DNA of 64,000 nt. Origin: Williamsia sp. CHRR-6 (lineage in GTDB: Bacteria > Actinomycetota > Actinomycetes > Mycobacteriales > Mycobacteriaceae). The notes under the pieces are model-generated. The model was not told the origin of the DNA. It saw only the letters and a program-made list of their open reading frames with translations, and made no database searches. The DNA lies in assembly GCF_018474015.1 (NCBI RefSeq), contig NZ_JAHCSG010000001.1:682001-746000 (forward strand), read 5' to 3'. Positions within the stretch are counted from its first letter, which is position 1, and each line of letters begins with the position of its first letter. Below, piece after piece: positions 21,934 through 28,265 of this stretch. The translations under genes and the position numbers were made by a program.

Positions 21934-22380
21934 TCACGACGCAGCGAGGCGGCTGGCGATGTCTCGCAAGTCGATCTCGTTGGTCCGCAAGGCCCCCTTC
22001 GGCGCGTTCGACGCGTCGTCGAGCTCGGCGAGGTCGGCGAAAACTCGCGCGAACGTGCCGTCGACGACGGCTGCGACCGTCGCCGGGTCGCATTCCGACG
22101 ACAAAGCAGGCATGCCGGCGAAGACCGCAGCCACCACTGCGGCCCGATCGTCCATGCTCTGGCTGCGAGTGACCGGGACCATCAGATCGATGGCCGACGC
22201 CAGCTCTCGATAGGTCAGTGTTCGATGGTGGTAGCGGACCACCACTCGATCCGGACCGGTGTCGGCGATTCGGCGAACCGCGGCCAAGAGATCGGCTGCG
22301 TCCACCTCAGTCGACATGGCCCTGATCCCGTTCGTTGATGCTGCGGTCGTTCCCCCCGACCGAACTGCTGCAAATGACAT
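21934..22380 (-). CDS. Small protein resembling only an A-domain N-terminus (copy B)
   Basis: 148 residues from ATG 22380, preceded by AGGGG five bases upstream; an ATG at 22317 (MSTEVDAADLL) is an alternative. I know no named family for it. From about residue 25 it reads like the first 65-70 residues of an adenylation domain: AADLLAAVRRIAD, then DRVVVRYHHRTLTYRELA, then DDRAAVVAAVFAGMPAL, then a helical tail. No ATP-binding or catalytic A-domain motif is present, so it cannot activate an amino acid alone. It lies between the MbtH-like gene and the NRPS on the same strand, so it probably belongs to the same operon. A decayed A-domain remnant is the alternative, but the intact frame, plausible ribosome site and a second relative nearby argue for a kept gene. 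Confidence 0.68.
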   Translation of the reverse strand: MSFAAVRSGGTTAASTNGIRAMSTEVDAADLLAAVRRIADTGPDRVVVRYHHRTLTYRELASAIDLMVPVTRSQSMDDRAAVVAAVFAGMPALSSECDPATVAAVVDGTFARVFADLAELDDASNAPKGALRTNEIDLRDIASRLAAS

Positions 22381-22641
22381 GTTCACCCCTGTGCGTTGCT
22401 TCCACCGTGCGTGCGTGGGAAGAGCGTAACTCTCGCCCGTGCCGATCGGATTGAAAGAATGTTACACAACGTAACCGTGACCTACGCCACAACACGAGCT
22501 GAATTGCCGTCTACCAGCAGAAAAGGCCCCAACGACCAGTGTTTGCCAGCTCAAAGCGCGTGTGTTCTGACGCACATCCGTGGCCCCGCAGTGTCATGGC
22601 CGTTATCAAAGTGGCCAGTGTTACAGGAATGAACGATGTGA
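22381..22641. promoter_or_regulatory. Gap with palindrome gttac-n5-gtaac
   Basis: 261 bp between the MbtH-like gene and copy B, less GC-rich than its neighbours. It holds a 15-bp dyad, gttac acaac gtaac, at 22461-22475, about 80 bp upstream of copy B. This looks like a site for a dimeric regulator, and the region may be an internal promoter for copy B and the NRPS. No regulator for it is visible in the immediate locus. No gene is seen here. Confidence 0.45.
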
Positions 22642-22863
22642 CTACTGAGACGAGTCGGCTTCCATGGCGTCGATGAGGCTCTGCGGACGCAGATCGGTCC
22701 AGTTCTCCGTCACGTAAGCCAGGCAGTCCGCTCGGGATGCCTCGCCGAAGACCTTGTTCCACCCCGCGGGGATGTCGGCGAACGTCGGCCACAGGGAGTG
22801 CTGGTTCTCGTCGTTGACGAGAACGAAGAAGCGACCCTCTTCGTCGTCGAATGGATTGCTCAT
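22642..22863 (-). CDS. mbtH: MbtH-like NRPS helper protein
   Basis: 73 residues, the usual MbtH length, with the family pattern intact: [44 protein letters not shown]. MbtH-like proteins bind the large subdomain of A domains and are needed for folding or activity of many actinobacterial adenylation domains. The start ATG 22863 follows AGAGGGG at a good distance. It is on the NRPS strand, between the two small A-domain-like genes, and almost certainly serves this synthetase. Confidence 0.97.
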
Positions 22864-22942: not shown

Positions 22943-23362
22943 TCACACCTCTCGTGCGCCGGCGACGGCCATCGTCGCCTGGACTCGGACAGACGACAGC
23001 GTAGCGGCCAGACCGTCGGGTCCGGACACGGCCAGACCGGGAACACACATCATCAGGGCCATGGTCAGCGCCGAGTCGTCGACCACCTGCCCGCCGGACA
23101 ACGCCAGCGCCGCCCCCTGCGCACGAGCGTGGAGTTCGGCGAAGCTGACCGGTCGGGCCGGTGTGATGACCGACGGGGCATCAGGCGCGACCCGCGCCGC
23201 CGCCGAGACCAACGACCCGAGCGAGGTGTCGGCCTCCGAGCGAGTCGCCACGGCGGCCGACGTGCGGTGCAGCGCGTTCGGTGTCTGCCGGTTCACCGGC
23301 TGGGAGTTCGAGTTCTGGGGCATCGCGGTGGTGATCCGACGCGATCGATACATCGACGTCAC
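22943..23362 (-). CDS. Small protein resembling only an A-domain N-terminus (copy A)
   Basis: 139 residues from GTG 23362, placed seven bases after AGGAG; an in-frame ATG at 23353 is the alternative. After a ~50-residue polar leader it reads SLGSLVSAAARVAPDAP, then PVSFAELHARA, then DDSALTMALMMCVPGLA, then a short tail. This is the pattern of an A-domain opening, and it matches copy B and the two fragments inside the NRPS better than it matches a complete A domain. Core motifs A3 to A10 are all absent. It is the first gene of the minus-strand cluster, 79 bp ahead of the MbtH-like gene. Function unknown; a partner of MbtH or of the synthetase is a guess. Confidence 0.68.
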   Translation of the reverse strand: MTSMYRSRRITTAMPQNSNSQPVNRQTPNALHRTSAAVATRSEADTSLGSLVSAAARVAPDAPSVITPARPVSFAELHARAQGAALALSGGQVVDDSALTMALMMCVPGLAVSGPDGLAATLSSVRVQATMAVAGAREV

Positions 23363-23671
23363 GGAAGCTCTCCTCACTGGCGCTTACAGGTCGGTGAGTC
23401 TCCACCGACATGGGCGCGACGAATGCCCCCAGACGTCGCAGCTGTGTTCGGTGCTCACTGTATCCGAGCACGCCGACACCCGGAGGACGTCGGGCGGTTC
23501 ACCTGTTCGACGGGGATGTCGCATCCGCGTCGACTGACATGTCGCATCCACGCTGCTGAGCGTTACAGGTGTGGCGTCTGAGCTAAGTTCTTCTCATGAC
23601 CTGGCACAGCGGCGTCGGCGGAGTCCGGGCGGGCGAACGTCGAGGCGGCAGTCGAGTCGGGGGTCACGCGG
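23363..23671. promoter_or_regulatory. Divergent promoter region between NRPS cluster and exporter
   Basis: 309 bp between two divergently read operons, with no convincing gene. It holds an 11-bp direct repeat atgtcgcatcc at 23516-23526 and 23539-23549 (23 bp start to start, about two helical turns). It also holds a short dyad gtgctc/gagcac at 23451-23471. Either could be a shared operator. The ribosome site gaggagag for copy A lies at 23368-23375. I did not find sigma-70 boxes I would defend. Confidence 0.5.
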
Positions 23672-24883
23672 ATGCGTGATGACCCGACGCCCGCGACCAC
23701 GTACCGTACGCCCGTGGAGTCGAACAGGCCCGTCACCGGCCCGTGGTCCCTGCCGGAGAAGATCGACACCGGTCGGCGATCGGCGCACGCGCAGGGTGTC
23801 GATGCGGCGCAGGGTGTCGATGCGGCGCACGCGCACGGGAGCGCCCGCGGACCCGCAGTCGTGGCCGACGGGCTGGTCAAACGCTTCGGTGAGTTCACCG
23901 CAGTCGACGGCGTCAGCTTCGAGGTACCCGCCGGAACGGTGCTCGGATTGCTGGGCCCCAACGGCGCAGGCAAGACCACGACGGTGAACATGCTGGCCAC
24001 GCTGCTGCTGCCGGACGGTGGCAGTGCCCGGATCGCGGGCTACGACGTGGTCTCCCAGCGCAGCGAGGTGCGCAAGTCGATCATGCTGACCGGCCAGTTC
24101 GCCGCCCTCGACGAATCGCTGACCGGCCGCGAGAACCTGGTCCTGTTCGGACGACTGCTCGGATTGGACAAGGCTGCGGCCCGGCGGCGAGCCGAGGAAC
24201 TGCTGGAGGCGTTCAACCTCACCGAGGCCGCGACGCGCCGGGTGGGCAAGTTCTCCGGTGGCATGCGCAGGCGCATCGACATCGCCTGCGGGTTGGTGGT
24301 GCGTCCAGAGGTCGTCTTCCTCGACGAACCGACCACCGGCCTCGATCCCCGCAGTCGCCAGGACGTGTGGAACATCGTCACCTCGCTGCGCGATCTGGGC
24401 ATCACCACCTTGCTGACCACGCAGTACCTCGAGGAAGCCGACCTGCTCAGCGACAACATCGTGGTCATCGATCGCGGGCGGGTGATCGCCGAGGGCACCG
24501 CAGACGAGCTCAAGGACCGCGTCTCGGGCACCTTCTGCGAGGTGGTGCCCAGCTACCCCGACGATCTGGTCAAGATCGAAGAACTGCTGGCCGACCTGGC
24601 TCCGAAGGGCGAGCTGCGGATCAACCCGACCCGCACTGCCCTGACCGTACCGGCCACCGACGGCACCACGACTCTGGTCGAGATCGTGCGTCGGCTCGAC
24701 GCGGCCTCCATCGCGCTGACCGACGTGGGGCTGCGCCGACCCTCGCTCGACGACGTTTTCCTCAAATTGACCGACCGGACCGCAGGCGAGGCAACTGATC
24801 TCGCCGCATCCGACCAGTCGGGCCCCAGCGACCAGGATCGCGCAGACCTCGCTTTCCGACCCGATCCCGGAGCCGCCCGGTGA
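23672..24883 (+). CDS. DrrA-type ABC transporter ATPase
   Basis: 403 residues. After a ~65-residue variable leader comes a complete ABC domain: Walker A GPNGAGKTT, signature FSGGMRRRIDIA, Walker B VVFLDEPTTGLDP, switch region LLTTQYLEEAD. A C-terminal extension typical of daunorubicin-resistance (DrrA) ATPases follows. It powers export of a hydrophobic or peptide product through the two permeases downstream, with which it overlaps by four bases. The leader contains a duplicated AQGVDA encoded by an 18-bp tandem repeat, so the true start may be later than ATG 23672. The divergent position next to the NRPS suggests the peptide as cargo. Confidence 0.92.
   Translation: MRDDPTPATTYRTPVESNRPVTGPWSLPEKIDTGRRSAHAQGVDAAQGVDAAHAHGSARGPAVVADGLVKRFGEFTAVDGVSFEVPAGTVLGLLGPNGAGKTTTVNMLATLLLPDGGSARIAGYDVVSQRSEVRKSIMLTGQFAALDESLTGRENLVLFGRLLGLDKAAARRRAEELLEAFNLTEAATRRVGKFSGGMRRRIDIACGLVVRPEVVFLDEPTTGLDPRSRQDVWNIVTSLRDLGITTLLTTQYLEEADLLSDNIVVIDRGRVIAEGTADELKDRVSGTFCEVVPSYPDDLVKIEELLADLAPKGELRINPTRTALTVPATDGTTTLVEIVRRLDAASIALTDVGLRRPSLDDVFLKLTDRTAGEATDLAASDQSGPSDQDRADLAFRPDPGAAR
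23789..23824. repeat. 18-bp tandem repeat in the DrrA leader
   Basis: Two perfect head-to-tail copies of gcgcagggtgtcgatgcg encode AQGVDA twice, followed by a partial third. It lies in the non-conserved leader of the ATPase, before the ABC domain. Confidence 0.85.
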
Positions 24884-25695
24884 CGGCGGTGACCTTTGCG
24901 CCCGAACTGCACGGCGCCGACCTGCGACCGTCGATCTCGGTGATCGGGCAGGTGGCGGCACTGACCAACCGCTCGATCCGCGGCATGTGGCGCCAGGGCG
25001 AGTTCTTCCTCGGCATCGTCGCGCCGATCATGCTGACGATCTGCTTCTACGTGCCGCTGCGCAGCATCTTCGACTCGTTCCCCGGGGTGAACTACGCGCA
25101 GTTCCTGATGCCGGTGATCTGCCTGCAATCGGTGGGATTCGTGGCGACCTCGGCCGCCATGCGCTCGGCCAACGACGGCACAGTCGGGATCACCGAGCGG
25201 CTTCGCAGCATGCCGGTGAGCCCCGTGGTGCCGATCGTCGCGCGCCTGTTCGCCAACGCGGTGCTGCTGGCCATATCGCTGGGCTGGGCGATGCTCTCCG
25301 GCCTGGTCATCGGATGGCGCCCCAACCACGGTCCGCTGAACCTGCTGGGGTTCCTCGCGGTGGCGTTCGCGGTGGGTCTGCTGTTGGCGTTCGGCGCCGA
25401 CATCATCGGCGTGCTGGCCAAGAACCCCGAGGCGACCAGCCAGGCGTTGGCGTTGCCACAGCTCATCCTGGGCATGCTCTCGACCGGGTTCGTCCCCGAG
25501 GCCAGCTTCCCCGAGTGGATCCGACCCTTCGCCCGCAATCAACCGATCTCGCAGTTCACCGAGCTGATGCGTGGTTTCGACAACGGCAACGTCACCGCAT
25601 CGATGGCGATCGGCCCCCTGGCCTGGGCCGGCGGGATAGCGGTGCTCGCCGTCGGTGGCGGGGTGCTGCTGATCGTGCGGAGTTCGCGCCGATGA
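24880..25695 (+). CDS. ABC-2 type permease, DrrB-like
   Basis: 271 residues from GTG 24880, overlapping the ATPase stop (GTGA). It has about six hydrophobic segments, beginning with FFLGIVAPIMLTICFYVPL and ending with LAVGGGVLLIV. The conserved stretch RPFARNQPISQFTELMRGF before the last segment is typical of Drr/ABC-2 permeases. It forms the membrane channel together with the next gene. The tight coupling of three genes indicates one transcript and fixed stoichiometry. Confidence 0.92.
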   Translation: MTAVTFAPELHGADLRPSISVIGQVAALTNRSIRGMWRQGEFFLGIVAPIMLTICFYVPLRSIFDSFPGVNYAQFLMPVICLQSVGFVATSAAMRSANDGTVGITERLRSMPVSPVVPIVARLFANAVLLAISLGWAMLSGLVIGWRPNHGPLNLLGFLAVAFAVGLLLAFGADIIGVLAKNPEATSQALALPQLILGMLSTGFVPEASFPEWIRPFARNQPISQFTELMRGFDNGNVTASMAIGPLAWAGGIAVLAVGGGVLLIVRSSRR

Positions 25696-27254
25696 GCTGG
25701 GAGATCACCGGGACCCCGGAACAACCACCTCGCCGCGGCTCACGTACCCCGCCGCCGAGTGACGACGACTCCGCCGGGCGAGCCGAGTCGGGCCGTAGAT
25801 CTCGCCACCGCTCGCCGGACTCGACCCCCGACGATCGGTGGTGGAGTACCGATCGCAACGCGGCGTTGCGAGCCGAGAACGCCGGCGAGGCGCTGACCCG
25901 GCCCATCATCCGGGTGCGTTCCGATGCGACCCCACCGGGTCCACCGTCCGGGCCGGGCGCGCAGCCACCGTCCGGGCCGGGCGCGCGCACACCGTCCGGG
26001 CCGGGCGCGCGCACACCGTCCGGTCGGGTGGTGCGACCGCGTTCCGTGCCGGGTTGGGGACCGCGGCCACCCGGGGCACCTGTCGCAGACCGACCGCTGC
26101 GGCCACACCGCGACGGTCCGTACCGGGACGCGGCGTATCGGGAAGGTCCGCCCGAGCGGCAGGTGCTGTTTCCCGGCACGGGCTCGATTCGCGCAGTGGT
26201 CGGCCCGTGGACGGTCCTCAACGAACGGATGACCGGCGAGCGCACCGGTCGTGAGCGCGCCCGCACAGACTCCGGTGCGCTGCGGGAGAGCTCCCGGCCC
26301 CAGCAGGTCGACACCGATGCGGCCACGGGGGCCGACGACGCACCGACCATCAGACTGACCGCCATCAGCGCGGCCGCGCTCGCTGCGGACACCGCCACCC
26401 CTACGACGACCGGCGTCACCACCCGCGCCGCGTGGTCTGCGGTCACGCGGTTCCCCCCGGCGGCTGCCCTCGGTGAACGCGGGTGGACCGCCTACCGCAA
26501 GCACACCGCCGCGCTCAGCGGGCGACAGCTGATGGTGGTGGGTCGCGACCGGGTCACTCTCTTGCAGACCCTGTTGTTCCCGGCCTTGAGCATGATCATG
26601 TTCAAGGTGGTGCTCGGTGATGCCATCGGTCAGGCCACCGGCCAGAACAGCGCGTTCGGCACCGTCCCACTGGTCGTCCTCGTCGGCGCGATGTTCGGTT
26701 CGTTGGCCGGAGGTGTCCGCCTGATGACCGAGCGACGCACCGGCCTGCTGACGCGTCTGTACGTGCTGCCGATCCACCGTGGCGCCGATCTGAGCGCTCG
26801 AATCATCGCCGAGTTGGCGCGCATCCTGCTGGGCACGGTCATCCTCACCTCGTTCGGGATGATCATCGGCTGGCGGTTCAACCAGGGCCTGCTACCCGCC
26901 CTGGGCATCTTCGCGGTCGCCCTGCTCTATGGGGCCGCGTTCTTCAGCATCGTGCTCACGGTGTCGCTGTCATCGTCGAAAGTGCCCCTGGTGCAGGTGA
27001 TGTCACTGGTGTCGAGCCTGTTGATGTTCTTCAACTCCGGCTTCTCCCCGGTCAGCGCGTATCCGAAACTGTTGCAGCCGTTGGTGTCCAACCAACCGAT
27101 GACCACCGCCATCGACACCATGCGCGCCCTGGCTGTCGGTGGCCCGGTCGCCGACAGCCTCGTCAAGACCCTCGCCTGGGCCATCGGCATCATGGTCGTC
27201 TTCGCTTACCCGGCCCTGCGCGGCTACCGTAAGGCGGCGGCGTCACCGTCCTGA
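25692..27254 (+). CDS. ABC-2 type permease, DrrC-like, with long disordered N-terminal extension
   Basis: 520 residues from ATG 25692, overlapping the previous stop (ATGA). The C-terminal ~250 residues are an ordinary ABC-2 permease (LLFPALSMIMFKVVLGDAIG, then LYVLPIHRGADLSARIIAE, then LLQPLVSNQPMTTAIDTMRAL). The first ~270 residues are Pro, Arg, Gly and Asp rich, without hydrophobic segments, and include the tandem unit PSGPGART. Such an extension is unusual for DrrC, normally about 250-280 residues in total. It is expected on the cytoplasmic side, because the first membrane segment starts only after it. Starting later would lose the ATGA coupling. Confidence 0.9.
   Translation: MSWEITGTPEQPPRRGSRTPPPSDDDSAGRAESGRRSRHRSPDSTPDDRWWSTDRNAALRAENAGEALTRPIIRVRSDATPPGPPSGPGAQPPSGPGARTPSGPGARTPSGRVVRPRSVPGWGPRPPGAPVADRPLRPHRDGPYRDAAYREGPPERQVLFPGTGSIRAVVGPWTVLNERMTGERTGRERARTDSGALRESSRPQQVDTDAATGADDAPTIRLTAISAAALAADTATPTTTGVTTRAAWSAVTRFPPAAALGERGWTAYRKHTAALSGRQLMVVGRDRVTLLQTLLFPALSMIMFKVVLGDAIGQATGQNSAFGTVPLVVLVGAMFGSLAGGVRLMTERRTGLLTRLYVLPIHRGADLSARIIAELARILLGTVILTSFGMIIGWRFNQGLLPALGIFAVALLYGAAFFSIVLTVSLSSSKVPLVQVMSLVSSLLMFFNSGFSPVSAYPKLLQPLVSNQPMTTAIDTMRALAVGGPVADSLVKTLAWAIGIMVVFAYPALRGYRKAAASPS
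25943..26027. repeat. 24-bp tandem repeat in the DrrC extension
   Basis: Three full 24-bp units beginning accgtccgggccgggcgcgc (25943-25966, 25967-25990, 25991-26014) and a partial fourth. The second and third units are identical. They encode an eight-residue period, PSGPGART or PSGPGAQP. All indels are multiples of three. Confidence 0.9.
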
Positions 27255-27404: not shown

Positions 27405-28265
27405 ATGAAAATGCACACCCTGTCGGTGGTCATCCCCGTCTACAACGAGGCGCAGAGCATCGAACGCTGCCTGGAGCAGCTGTGTGCGCAGCGCGCACCG
27501 ATCCACGAGATCGTGGTGGTGGACAACAACTCCACCGATGACACCGCCACCATCGTCAAGGACTTCGCGACCGATCACCCGCAGGTGAACCTGATCTCCG
27601 AGCAGCGGCAGGGCGCATTGCACGCAGCTGCGCGCGGGCTGGCCGAAGCCACCGGCGACCTCATCGCCAAGATCGACGCCGACACCCTGGTGCTGCCCGC
27701 CTGGTCTGACAACATCGCGGCGTTCTTCGCCGTCGCCCCCGCCGACATGGCCGGCGGAAGCGGGATGTGCACCATGCACGACATGCCCTGGCAGCGGCCC
27801 TTCGCCGCCCTGCAACGACGCATGTCCTCGGCGCTGACGGCGAAACTCGCGCGGGGTGAGTTCTCGGAGATGGCCGACTCTTTCGGCGCGAACTTCGTGA
27901 TGCGCGCCCAGGCGTGGCGCGACATCGCGGACAAGACGAGCACCCGCAACGACATCCAGGACGACCTCGACATCGGGATCACCGTGGTAGCCGCCGGTTG
28001 GCGCCTGGCGTTGATCCCCGGCATGGACGCCACCATCTCCGGTCGGCGGCTGTGCACCAGCCCGCGCAGCTACTGGCGCTACAGCGCACGCACGCCGCGC
28101 ACCTTCCGGATGCACGGTCGCACAGGCGATTTCGTTCGATCGATGATCGGCGTGACTGCCGCCCGCATCGCTCACGCGCTGTGCTGGCCCGCGCTCCGGC
28201 TGTGGGACCCGCAGGCACATCGGTTCCGGTTGCGCTCCACCCAGACCGACCGCGTCCTGCCCTGA
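27405..28265 (+). CDS. GT2-family glycosyltransferase
   Basis: 286 residues with a GT-A fold signature: LSVVIPVYNEAQSIERCL at the N-terminus, VVVDNNSTDDTA, and the metal/nucleotide-sugar motif DADT. There is no long membrane segment. It is expected to move a sugar from an activated donor to an acceptor; the acceptor is unknown. It lies 150 bp after the exporter on the same strand, with only a weak ribosome site, and ends one base before the converging next gene. Glycosylation of the NRPS product is an inference from position only. Confidence 0.85.
   Translation: MKMHTLSVVIPVYNEAQSIERCLEQLCAQRAPIHEIVVVDNNSTDDTATIVKDFATDHPQVNLISEQRQGALHAAARGLAEATGDLIAKIDADTLVLPAWSDNIAAFFAVAPADMAGGSGMCTMHDMPWQRPFAALQRRMSSALTAKLARGEFSEMADSFGANFVMRAQAWRDIADKTSTRNDIQDDLDIGITVVAAGWRLALIPGMDATISGRRLCTSPRSYWRYSARTPRTFRMHGRTGDFVRSMIGVTAARIAHALCWPALRLWDPQAHRFRLRSTQTDRVLP

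Follow-up and report, generated by a model that had tools for sequence, protein, structure and literature searches.

A predicted disordered N-terminal tail on the DrrC-like permease of an exporter beside an NRPS cluster in Williamsia sp. CHRR-6

The drrABC genes and their neighbors

The window, which is the whole 64,000-nucleotide stretch of Williamsia sp. CHRR-6 DNA analyzed here, carries three successive exporter genes on the forward strand. The drrA gene (positions 23672 to 24883, +) encodes an ATPase that scores above the TIGR01188 (DrrA) cut-off (378.6 versus 312.45 bits), drrB (24880 to 25695, +) encodes a DrrB-like permease, and the third gene (25692 to 27254, +) encodes, by its ORF and translation, a drrC-like permease of 520 amino acids with an N-terminal extension. 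The three genes are joined by successive four-base overlaps, the drrC ATG (as ATGA) overlapping the drrB TGA. The drrC product matches the full TIGR01248 (DrrC) model (positions 1 to 152) with 120.9 bits, below the curated NCBIfam cut-off of 165.65 bits, and it is therefore properly named DrrC-like rather than filed as a member; for brevity, it is called DrrC below. The N-terminus of DrrA contains the sequence NRPVTGPWSL, which resembles a motif of the DrrC tail and is followed at 23789 to 23829 by an 18-bp tandem array (2.3 copies, 100% matches). Elsewhere in the Williamsia-group DrrA frames, something close to NRPVTGPWSL was seen only in locus L018 (PGSWRV, perhaps untranslated).

The permease core of DrrC is of an ordinary ABC-2 type and begins near residue 267, after 266 preceding residues. 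Residues 273 to 479 match ABC2_membrane (PF01061) above the Pfam gathering cut-off (52.9 versus 26.9 bits), and a Pfam search at an E value of 0.001 found two ABC2 families only and no FHA domain. Among the loci fetched (the best 80 of 165), the closest core is that of W. maris, with 83% identity. In Foldseek searches with the DrrC model, the ABC-2 exporters KpsMT-KpsE (8tsl_C, E value of 2.2e-4), TarGH (9cfl_A, 2.6e-3), and WzmWzt (6m96_B, 4.1e-3) were among the best matches, and ABCH and ABCG transporters were also matched. The likeness to KpsM, Wzm, and TarG is confined to the core, with identities of 13 to 21%, whereas the modeled tail has no confident structure.

DrrABC of Mycobacterium tuberculosis, the PDIM exporter, likewise has an ABC-2 permease and drrA, drrB, and drrC genes in an assembly-line cluster, but there the cluster encodes PDIM polyketide synthases and here an NRPS, and DrrC here has about 235 extra residues. 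In the available text of PMC11539658, M. tuberculosis DrrBC is argued to be a type V exporter and carries the coupling-helix pattern R-x-aromatic-x-x-P (R113, W115, and P118). The same feature is found here as R355, Y357, and P360, of which Y357 and P360 are invariant and R355 is kept in at least 90% of the 15 aligned tailed DrrC proteins. Within this DrrA/B/C-type exporter, which is encoded next to an NRPS cluster, DrrC makes up one of the membrane halves.

The NRPS gene (3 to 21608, −) is divergent from drrABC and leaves the window; its at least 7,202 codons encode Condensation, AMP-binding, and PP-binding domains. Between it and drrA lies an mbtH-like gene (22642 to 22863, −; PF03621, E value of 5.4e-29), flanked by genes for proteins of 150 amino acids (21934 to 22386, −) and 144 amino acids (22943 to 23377, −) with no Pfam match at an E value of 0.01. 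These two proteins may be N-terminal adenylation-domain pieces kept as separate proteins. The 150-amino-acid protein weakly matches the beginning of a DltA-type model (E value of 6e-4). The NRPS start, mbtH, and the two small genes adjoin drrABC in all 15 Williamsia-group loci. On the other side, 3′ of drrC, lies a family 2 glycosyltransferase gene (27405 to 28265, +).

The N-terminal extension of DrrC

Relatives of the permease core are encoded at 165 loci, and the best 80 were compared, more distant genera lying outside this sample (L001 and L002 are the window itself, L003 to L005 are paralogues, and the drrB gene of L038 could not be resolved). Sixteen of these 80 loci, 15 from the Williamsia group and one from Jongsikchunia, encode a tailed DrrC, with an extension of 147 to 195 residues and a total length of 400 to 449 amino acids. 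The other 64 loci belong to Rhodococcus, Nocardia, and Gordonia, and in the 63 that could be resolved, only 15 to 65 residues precede the core. The preliminary description of this DNA had held that DrrC proteins are normally about half as long as the one in the window, which is correct for these three genera (a core of about 254 residues plus 15 to 65) but not for the other tailed proteins. It had also named homologues that all start near the core as an observation that would count against the extension; this is the case at the 63 resolved loci but not in Jongsikchunia or at the 15 Williamsia-group loci.

Several observations bear on whether the extension is translated, as the earlier description had argued from the coupled ATGA. 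Among the best 80 of 165 loci, each of the 16 tailed relatives has a drrC start overlapping the 3′ end of drrB. A ribosome-binding-like GGAG stands 9 bases 5′ of the start (25679 to 25682, +), and GGAG or GGGG is found at this distance in 11 of 15 tailed drrC genes, a conservation that may be partly forced by the codons of DrrB. In addition, all 11 pairs compared, which are of related and so not independent sequences, show a dN lower than dS within the extension (e.g., 0.14/1.09, 0.16/1.36, and 0.53/1.19). These results agree with the earlier argument. If the start were instead miscalled, DrrC would really begin near residue 240 to 266, as the resolved Rhodococcus, Nocardia, and Gordonia proteins do, and the GC content by codon position is indeed less coding-like in the extension (0.74/0.715/0.787) than in the core (0.606/0.465/0.886). 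However, the lower GC at third positions is expected of a stretch rich in Pro, Arg, Gly, and Ala, the last alternative start lies at residue 180 with no ATG, GTG, or TTG in the drrC frame from there to the core, and the relatives show coupled starts, conserved motifs, and dN below dS, which makes a miscalled start highly improbable. The extension is, on comparative and modeling grounds, a translated, lineage-specific tail, predicted to be disordered, on an ordinary exporter permease.

The long Pro/Arg/Gly-rich segment reported earlier before the permease core is present and is predicted to be unstructured. An AlphaFold model built with 15 sequences (mean pLDDT of 58.7, pTM of 0.49) gave a pLDDT below 50 for 242 residues, nearly all of them within residues 1 to 244, and the helical core was better predicted. 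The earlier estimate of about 270 residues agrees with the 266 that precede the core, but the last 30 or so (residues 236 to 266; 26397 to 26489, +), with the pattern T252.F254P....E262.G264, resemble by eye the short N-terminus of an ordinary DrrC, and the extension proper therefore comprises about residues 1 to 235 (25692 to 26396, +), as delimited by pLDDT, absence in other genera, and dN below dS. By eye, the segment from T252 to G264 has a counterpart in the ordinary DrrC of other genera in different wording.

Tandem-repeat search located an array of 24-bp repeats at 25942 to 26023 (+), with 3.4 copies, 96% matches, and a score of 148, the highest of 25 repeat rows in the window. The translated array reads PSGPGAQP-PSGPGART-PSGPGART-PSG; the array described previously is thus real, but it holds two exact PSGPGART units rather than three. 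The repeats lie in a stretch of about 100 residues of the window's tail that is missing from the other aligned tails, and PSGPG occurs in only 1 of the 17 extensions compared, which is that of the window, and in none of the 16 others. Judged from this distribution, the repeats are an incidental local expansion within filler, and a role for them as a functional element of the extension was rejected on the ground of their window-only occurrence.

Conservation is instead concentrated in motif islands amid variable filler, namely, [RP]xRHR, D.WW[RS], FPGTGSIRAVVGPWTVL, and acidic-x-P-T-x-R-[LF]. Across 14 aligned Williamsia-group tails, M1, R38, H39, R40, R167, W173, T252, E262, and G264 are invariant. 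They include the RHR of the first motif (residues 38 to 40; 25803 to 25811, +) and two positions, R167 and W173, of the motif FPGTGSIRAVVGPWTVL (residues 160 to 176; 26169 to 26219, +), which is present in most of the 14. The acidic motif, whose position shifts between species, is represented in the window by DDAPTIRL (residues 215 to 222; 26334 to 26357, +), in which T219 is a candidate Ser/Thr-kinase acceptor by its pattern and a published logo. Outside the islands, similarity is limited; the other tails are 23 to 47% identical to that of the window.

The tail was found in few other places. A tail profile run on the genome of the strain (4.0 Mb, 14 contigs; 150 of 171 first-look candidates scored) matched only the drrC gene at E values of up to 10. 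Among 151 family genomes, with at most 22 first-look candidates scored per genome, 22 had a tail match at an E value of ≤0.1; 18 were strong (E value of <1e-28) and fell in three genera, and the four weak ones (0.004 to 0.07), an AAA-ATPase-like frame and short frames, looked chance-like by eye. The idea of a module used elsewhere was rejected, as strong matches were restricted to these three genera. A PDB sequence search gave no match, and no title or abstract opening among the matches listed in the literature searched described a DrrA or DrrC with a tail of this kind.

Candidate functions of the tail

We consider the chances about even that the DrrC tail is flexible, lies in the cytosol, and serves the exporter in docking or regulation, perhaps as a target of a Ser/Thr kinase, in a manner comparable to the linker of Rv1747. 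On this view, the tail would act as a flexible tether close to the ATPases and its motifs as sites of docking or modification, through which the tail might gate, localize, or cluster the exporter. The available text of PMC9312465 and PMC13257379 describes the disordered linker of M. tuberculosis Rv1747 as clustering on phosphorylation. In both systems, a cytosolic segment of an ABC exporter is disordered, here by prediction; clustering is kinase dependent in Rv1747, whereas the kinase link here comes from motif resemblance. Unlike Rv1747, the drrC protein has its ATPase on a separate chain and lacks an FHA domain, and the exporter is therefore not of the Rv1747 type regulated through FHA. PMC13257379 treats disorder in ABC transporters generally, and “Drr” does not occur in its available text. 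M. tuberculosis DrrABC was modeled as DrrB, DrrC, and two DrrA chains, with the low-complexity N-terminus of DrrC truncated at P16 for modeling, in the available part of PMC11539658. By analogy with this stoichiometry, a tail on DrrC would be present in one copy per transporter and a tail on DrrA in two.

The kinase part of this reading starts from the PknA acceptor logo of M. tuberculosis, which, in the available text of PMC7164672, has acidic residues at −1, −3 to −6, and +7, Pro at −1 and +2, Leu or Val at +3, and Lys or Arg at +4. The tail sites DDAPTIRL, EDAPTTRL, DDLPTTRF, and DDEPTTRF fit it in part. The pattern [DE][DE].PT..[LIVF], which was picked after the tails had been inspected, occurs 7 times in 17 tails (3,020 amino acids; three of these tails being near copies) and 6 times in 29 Gordonia DrrA frames (6,199 amino acids), versus once in 153 disordered control segments (19,293 amino acids) and 4 times in 370 control proteins (129,563 amino acids). 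At least four features of the logo are present at 16 of 228 Thr residues in 13 nonredundant tails, compared with 19 of 1,044 in control segments, and shuffled sequences attain the score of the DrrC tails in 1 of 1,000 trials; none of the 228 Thr residues attains five features. For 24 nonredundant Gordonia DrrA frames, the count is 14 of 388, and shuffles score as high in 296 of 1,000 trials. In the genome of the strain, five matches to Pkinase and three to FHA exceed the cut-off. The acidic-x-P-T-x-x-[LIVF] motifs are plausible candidate targets that a PknA-like kinase might phosphorylate, and the kinase link, drawn from motif resemblance, is a lead and not a result.

Alternatively, the tail may be a lineage-specific disordered N-terminus that is for the most part neutral, its length drifting and its presence simply tolerated. 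Its length varies from 147 to 266 residues, the window's tail being about 100 residues longer with its repeats included, the low identity among tails has been noted above, dN is higher in the extension than in the core, and two Gordonia loci have no tail at all. The invariant residues spread over 14 tails, the dN values below dS, and the enrichment of motifs speak against neutrality, which we regard as rather unlikely; the sequences behind the motif counts are related, as are those behind the dN/dS counts, and neither set is independent.

More specific partners had been suggested in the preliminary description, in which the tail could recruit the synthetase or the glycosyltransferase to the exporter. 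A glycosyltransferase that is more than 50% identical to that of the window and on the same strand follows drrC in only 2 of the 15 Williamsia-group loci, directly in L006 and about 1.2 kb on in L018. Since the gene is rarely kept at this place, a glycosyltransferase tether is unlikely and was rejected. The tail might instead tether the NRPS, or MbtH or the product, to the exporter for direct handover. The divergent NRPS start, mbtH, and small genes kept in all 15 Williamsia-group loci favor such a tether, as do the NRPS stretches found in the retrieved DNA of every Gordonia locus that has a long DrrA frame except L056 (28 of 29). However, the Gordonia loci L065 and L074 have an NRPS and no tail, 21 of the 33 Rhodococcus and Nocardia loci without a tail have an NRPS-like stretch in the DNA retrieved, the tailed Jongsikchunia locus L024 has no NRPS match in its fetched DNA, and the N-terminal parts of the Gordonia NRPSs are only 33 to 46% identical to that of the window. 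A clean link between the presence of an NRPS and that of a tail was rejected because of the untailed loci with an NRPS and L024, and an NRPS tether is considered unlikely.

If the tail does regulate or dock, in-frame deletions or motif changes would provide a genetically simple handle on an exporter of mycolate bacteria, by which the coupling of export to biosynthesis or to Ser/Thr kinase signaling could be probed.

Tails on DrrC and DrrA across genera

In 29 of 31 Gordonia-clade loci (best 80 of 165), DrrC is short and an open N-terminal frame of 112 to 401 codons, disordered in look, precedes the DrrA ATPase; this open frame 5′ of the ATPase, with a putative start, was taken as the Gordonia DrrA tail. 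In Jongsikchunia and the Williamsia group, the corresponding frame spans 38 to 95 codons. Comparison of nine Gordonia pairs gave a dN lower than dS, sometimes barely, in 31 of 32 blocks of the DrrA frame, and for one block no value was obtained. Five Rhodococcus loci (L045, L058, L061, L064, and L069) also have open frames of 146 to 435 codons before DrrA but were counted as untailed by eye because the conserved short start of their relatives stands right before the ATPase, and part of the 14 Rhodococcus and Nocardia control frames used below are therefore probably not translated. The Nocardia DrrA N-termini, of some tens of residues, partly Ala-rich, and without tail motifs, were counted as no tail.

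The tree of DrrB plus the DrrC core comprises 79 rows, with L009 and L012, near copies of L008, left out, and its midpoint root is a drawing aid only. All tailed systems fall on one side of a branch with an SH-aLRT support of 100 (46 rows), and the two Gordonia rows with a tail on neither subunit, L065 and L074, are among them. Within this group, Williamsia, with the tail on DrrC, is supported at 98, and Jongsikchunia L024, which has a DrrC tail and stands on a long branch, joins Gordonia, with the tail on DrrA, at 84. The tail state requires three changes for three states, the least possible being two, and these would fit either a single transfer of the tail from DrrC to DrrA along the Gordonia branch or separate gains. 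L049, whose MAG bears the name Rhodococcus, is nested within the Gordonia clade, and L009, from a record titled Kitasatospora arboriphila, is nearly identical to the Williamsia muralis locus; both are probably mislabeled or contaminated.

Motif comparison and overall similarity give divided evidence on whether the tails of the two subunits are the same element. A chain of four motif blocks learned from the Williamsia tails was scored against disordered segments of the window's own genome, which come from mechanical gene calls with antisense frames included and from disorder and hydropathy scales. At p values of ≤0.05, the chain was found in 12 of 29 Gordonia DrrA frames versus 9 of 152 controls (Fisher p value of 3.5e-6, relatedness ignored), in the DrrC tail of Jongsikchunia at 0.003, and in none of the 14 Rhodococcus and Nocardia DrrA frames of at least 90 residues, some of which are probably untranslated. 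Taken singly, the RHR block was found in 13 Gordonia frames versus 12 controls, GPW in 6 versus 2, DAPT in 6 versus 7, and WWR in 0 versus 6, and block order was weakly kept in the Gordonia frames (mean rank of 9.9 of 24, with 12.5 expected). The Williamsia tail profile ranked Gordonia L047 best among the DrrA frames (E value of 0.007), which alone beat all 4,050 shuffles, followed by the window's own DrrA, Nocardia L071 and L084, and Gordonia L029. The remaining comparisons were negative. hhalign of the DrrC tails against the Gordonia DrrA frames aligned 6 columns at a probability of 0.5%, searching with a profile built from five Gordonia DrrA frames recovered no DrrC tail convincingly (best E value of 0.074), and in a motif-free ungapped comparison using 24 of 29 Gordonia frames and 13 of 17 tails, 3 of 13 tails exceeded a z value of 1.64 versus 10 of 40 controls (−1.7 to 3.5 for the tails; control mean of 0.79), no better than the controls.

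Independent gains of the Williamsia DrrC tails and the Gordonia DrrA tails, without a common origin, are the probable explanation, consistent with the negative hhalign, Gordonia profile, and motif-free results; the motifs shared above controls and the either-or placement of the tail inside one tree group argue against them. Disordered tails quickly lose overall similarity, and the negative similarity tests therefore have low power. Because the evidence on tail identity is divided, we hold as doubtful, yet worth considering, that a tail whose motifs are free in position and include kinase acceptor sites passed from DrrC, where Williamsia and Jongsikchunia have it, to DrrA in Gordonia. More tentatively, the Gordonia DrrA tail might do the same job as the DrrC tail, which would make it a function of the assembled complex and not of the permease alone. 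Such a relocation, if true, would show that the tail acts for the transporter complex as a whole and that the regulation of a bacterial exporter can be rewired when a tail shifts from one subunit to another. The contrast between Williamsia and Gordonia offers a natural swap experiment on where the tail is required.

Long N-terminal frames were also observed outside these loci. L005 (G000:C2:305170-308790), a DrrA-like paralogue in the genome of the strain, has a long Pro/Ala-rich N-terminal frame, and disordered ATPase tails may thus be commoner in these genomes. In addition, a recurring [GD]W.TPLP stands in the short DrrC N-termini of Nocardia (L066, L071, L073, L081, L082, L084, and L085) and resembles the GWQTP of the DrrA frame of Gordonia L019.
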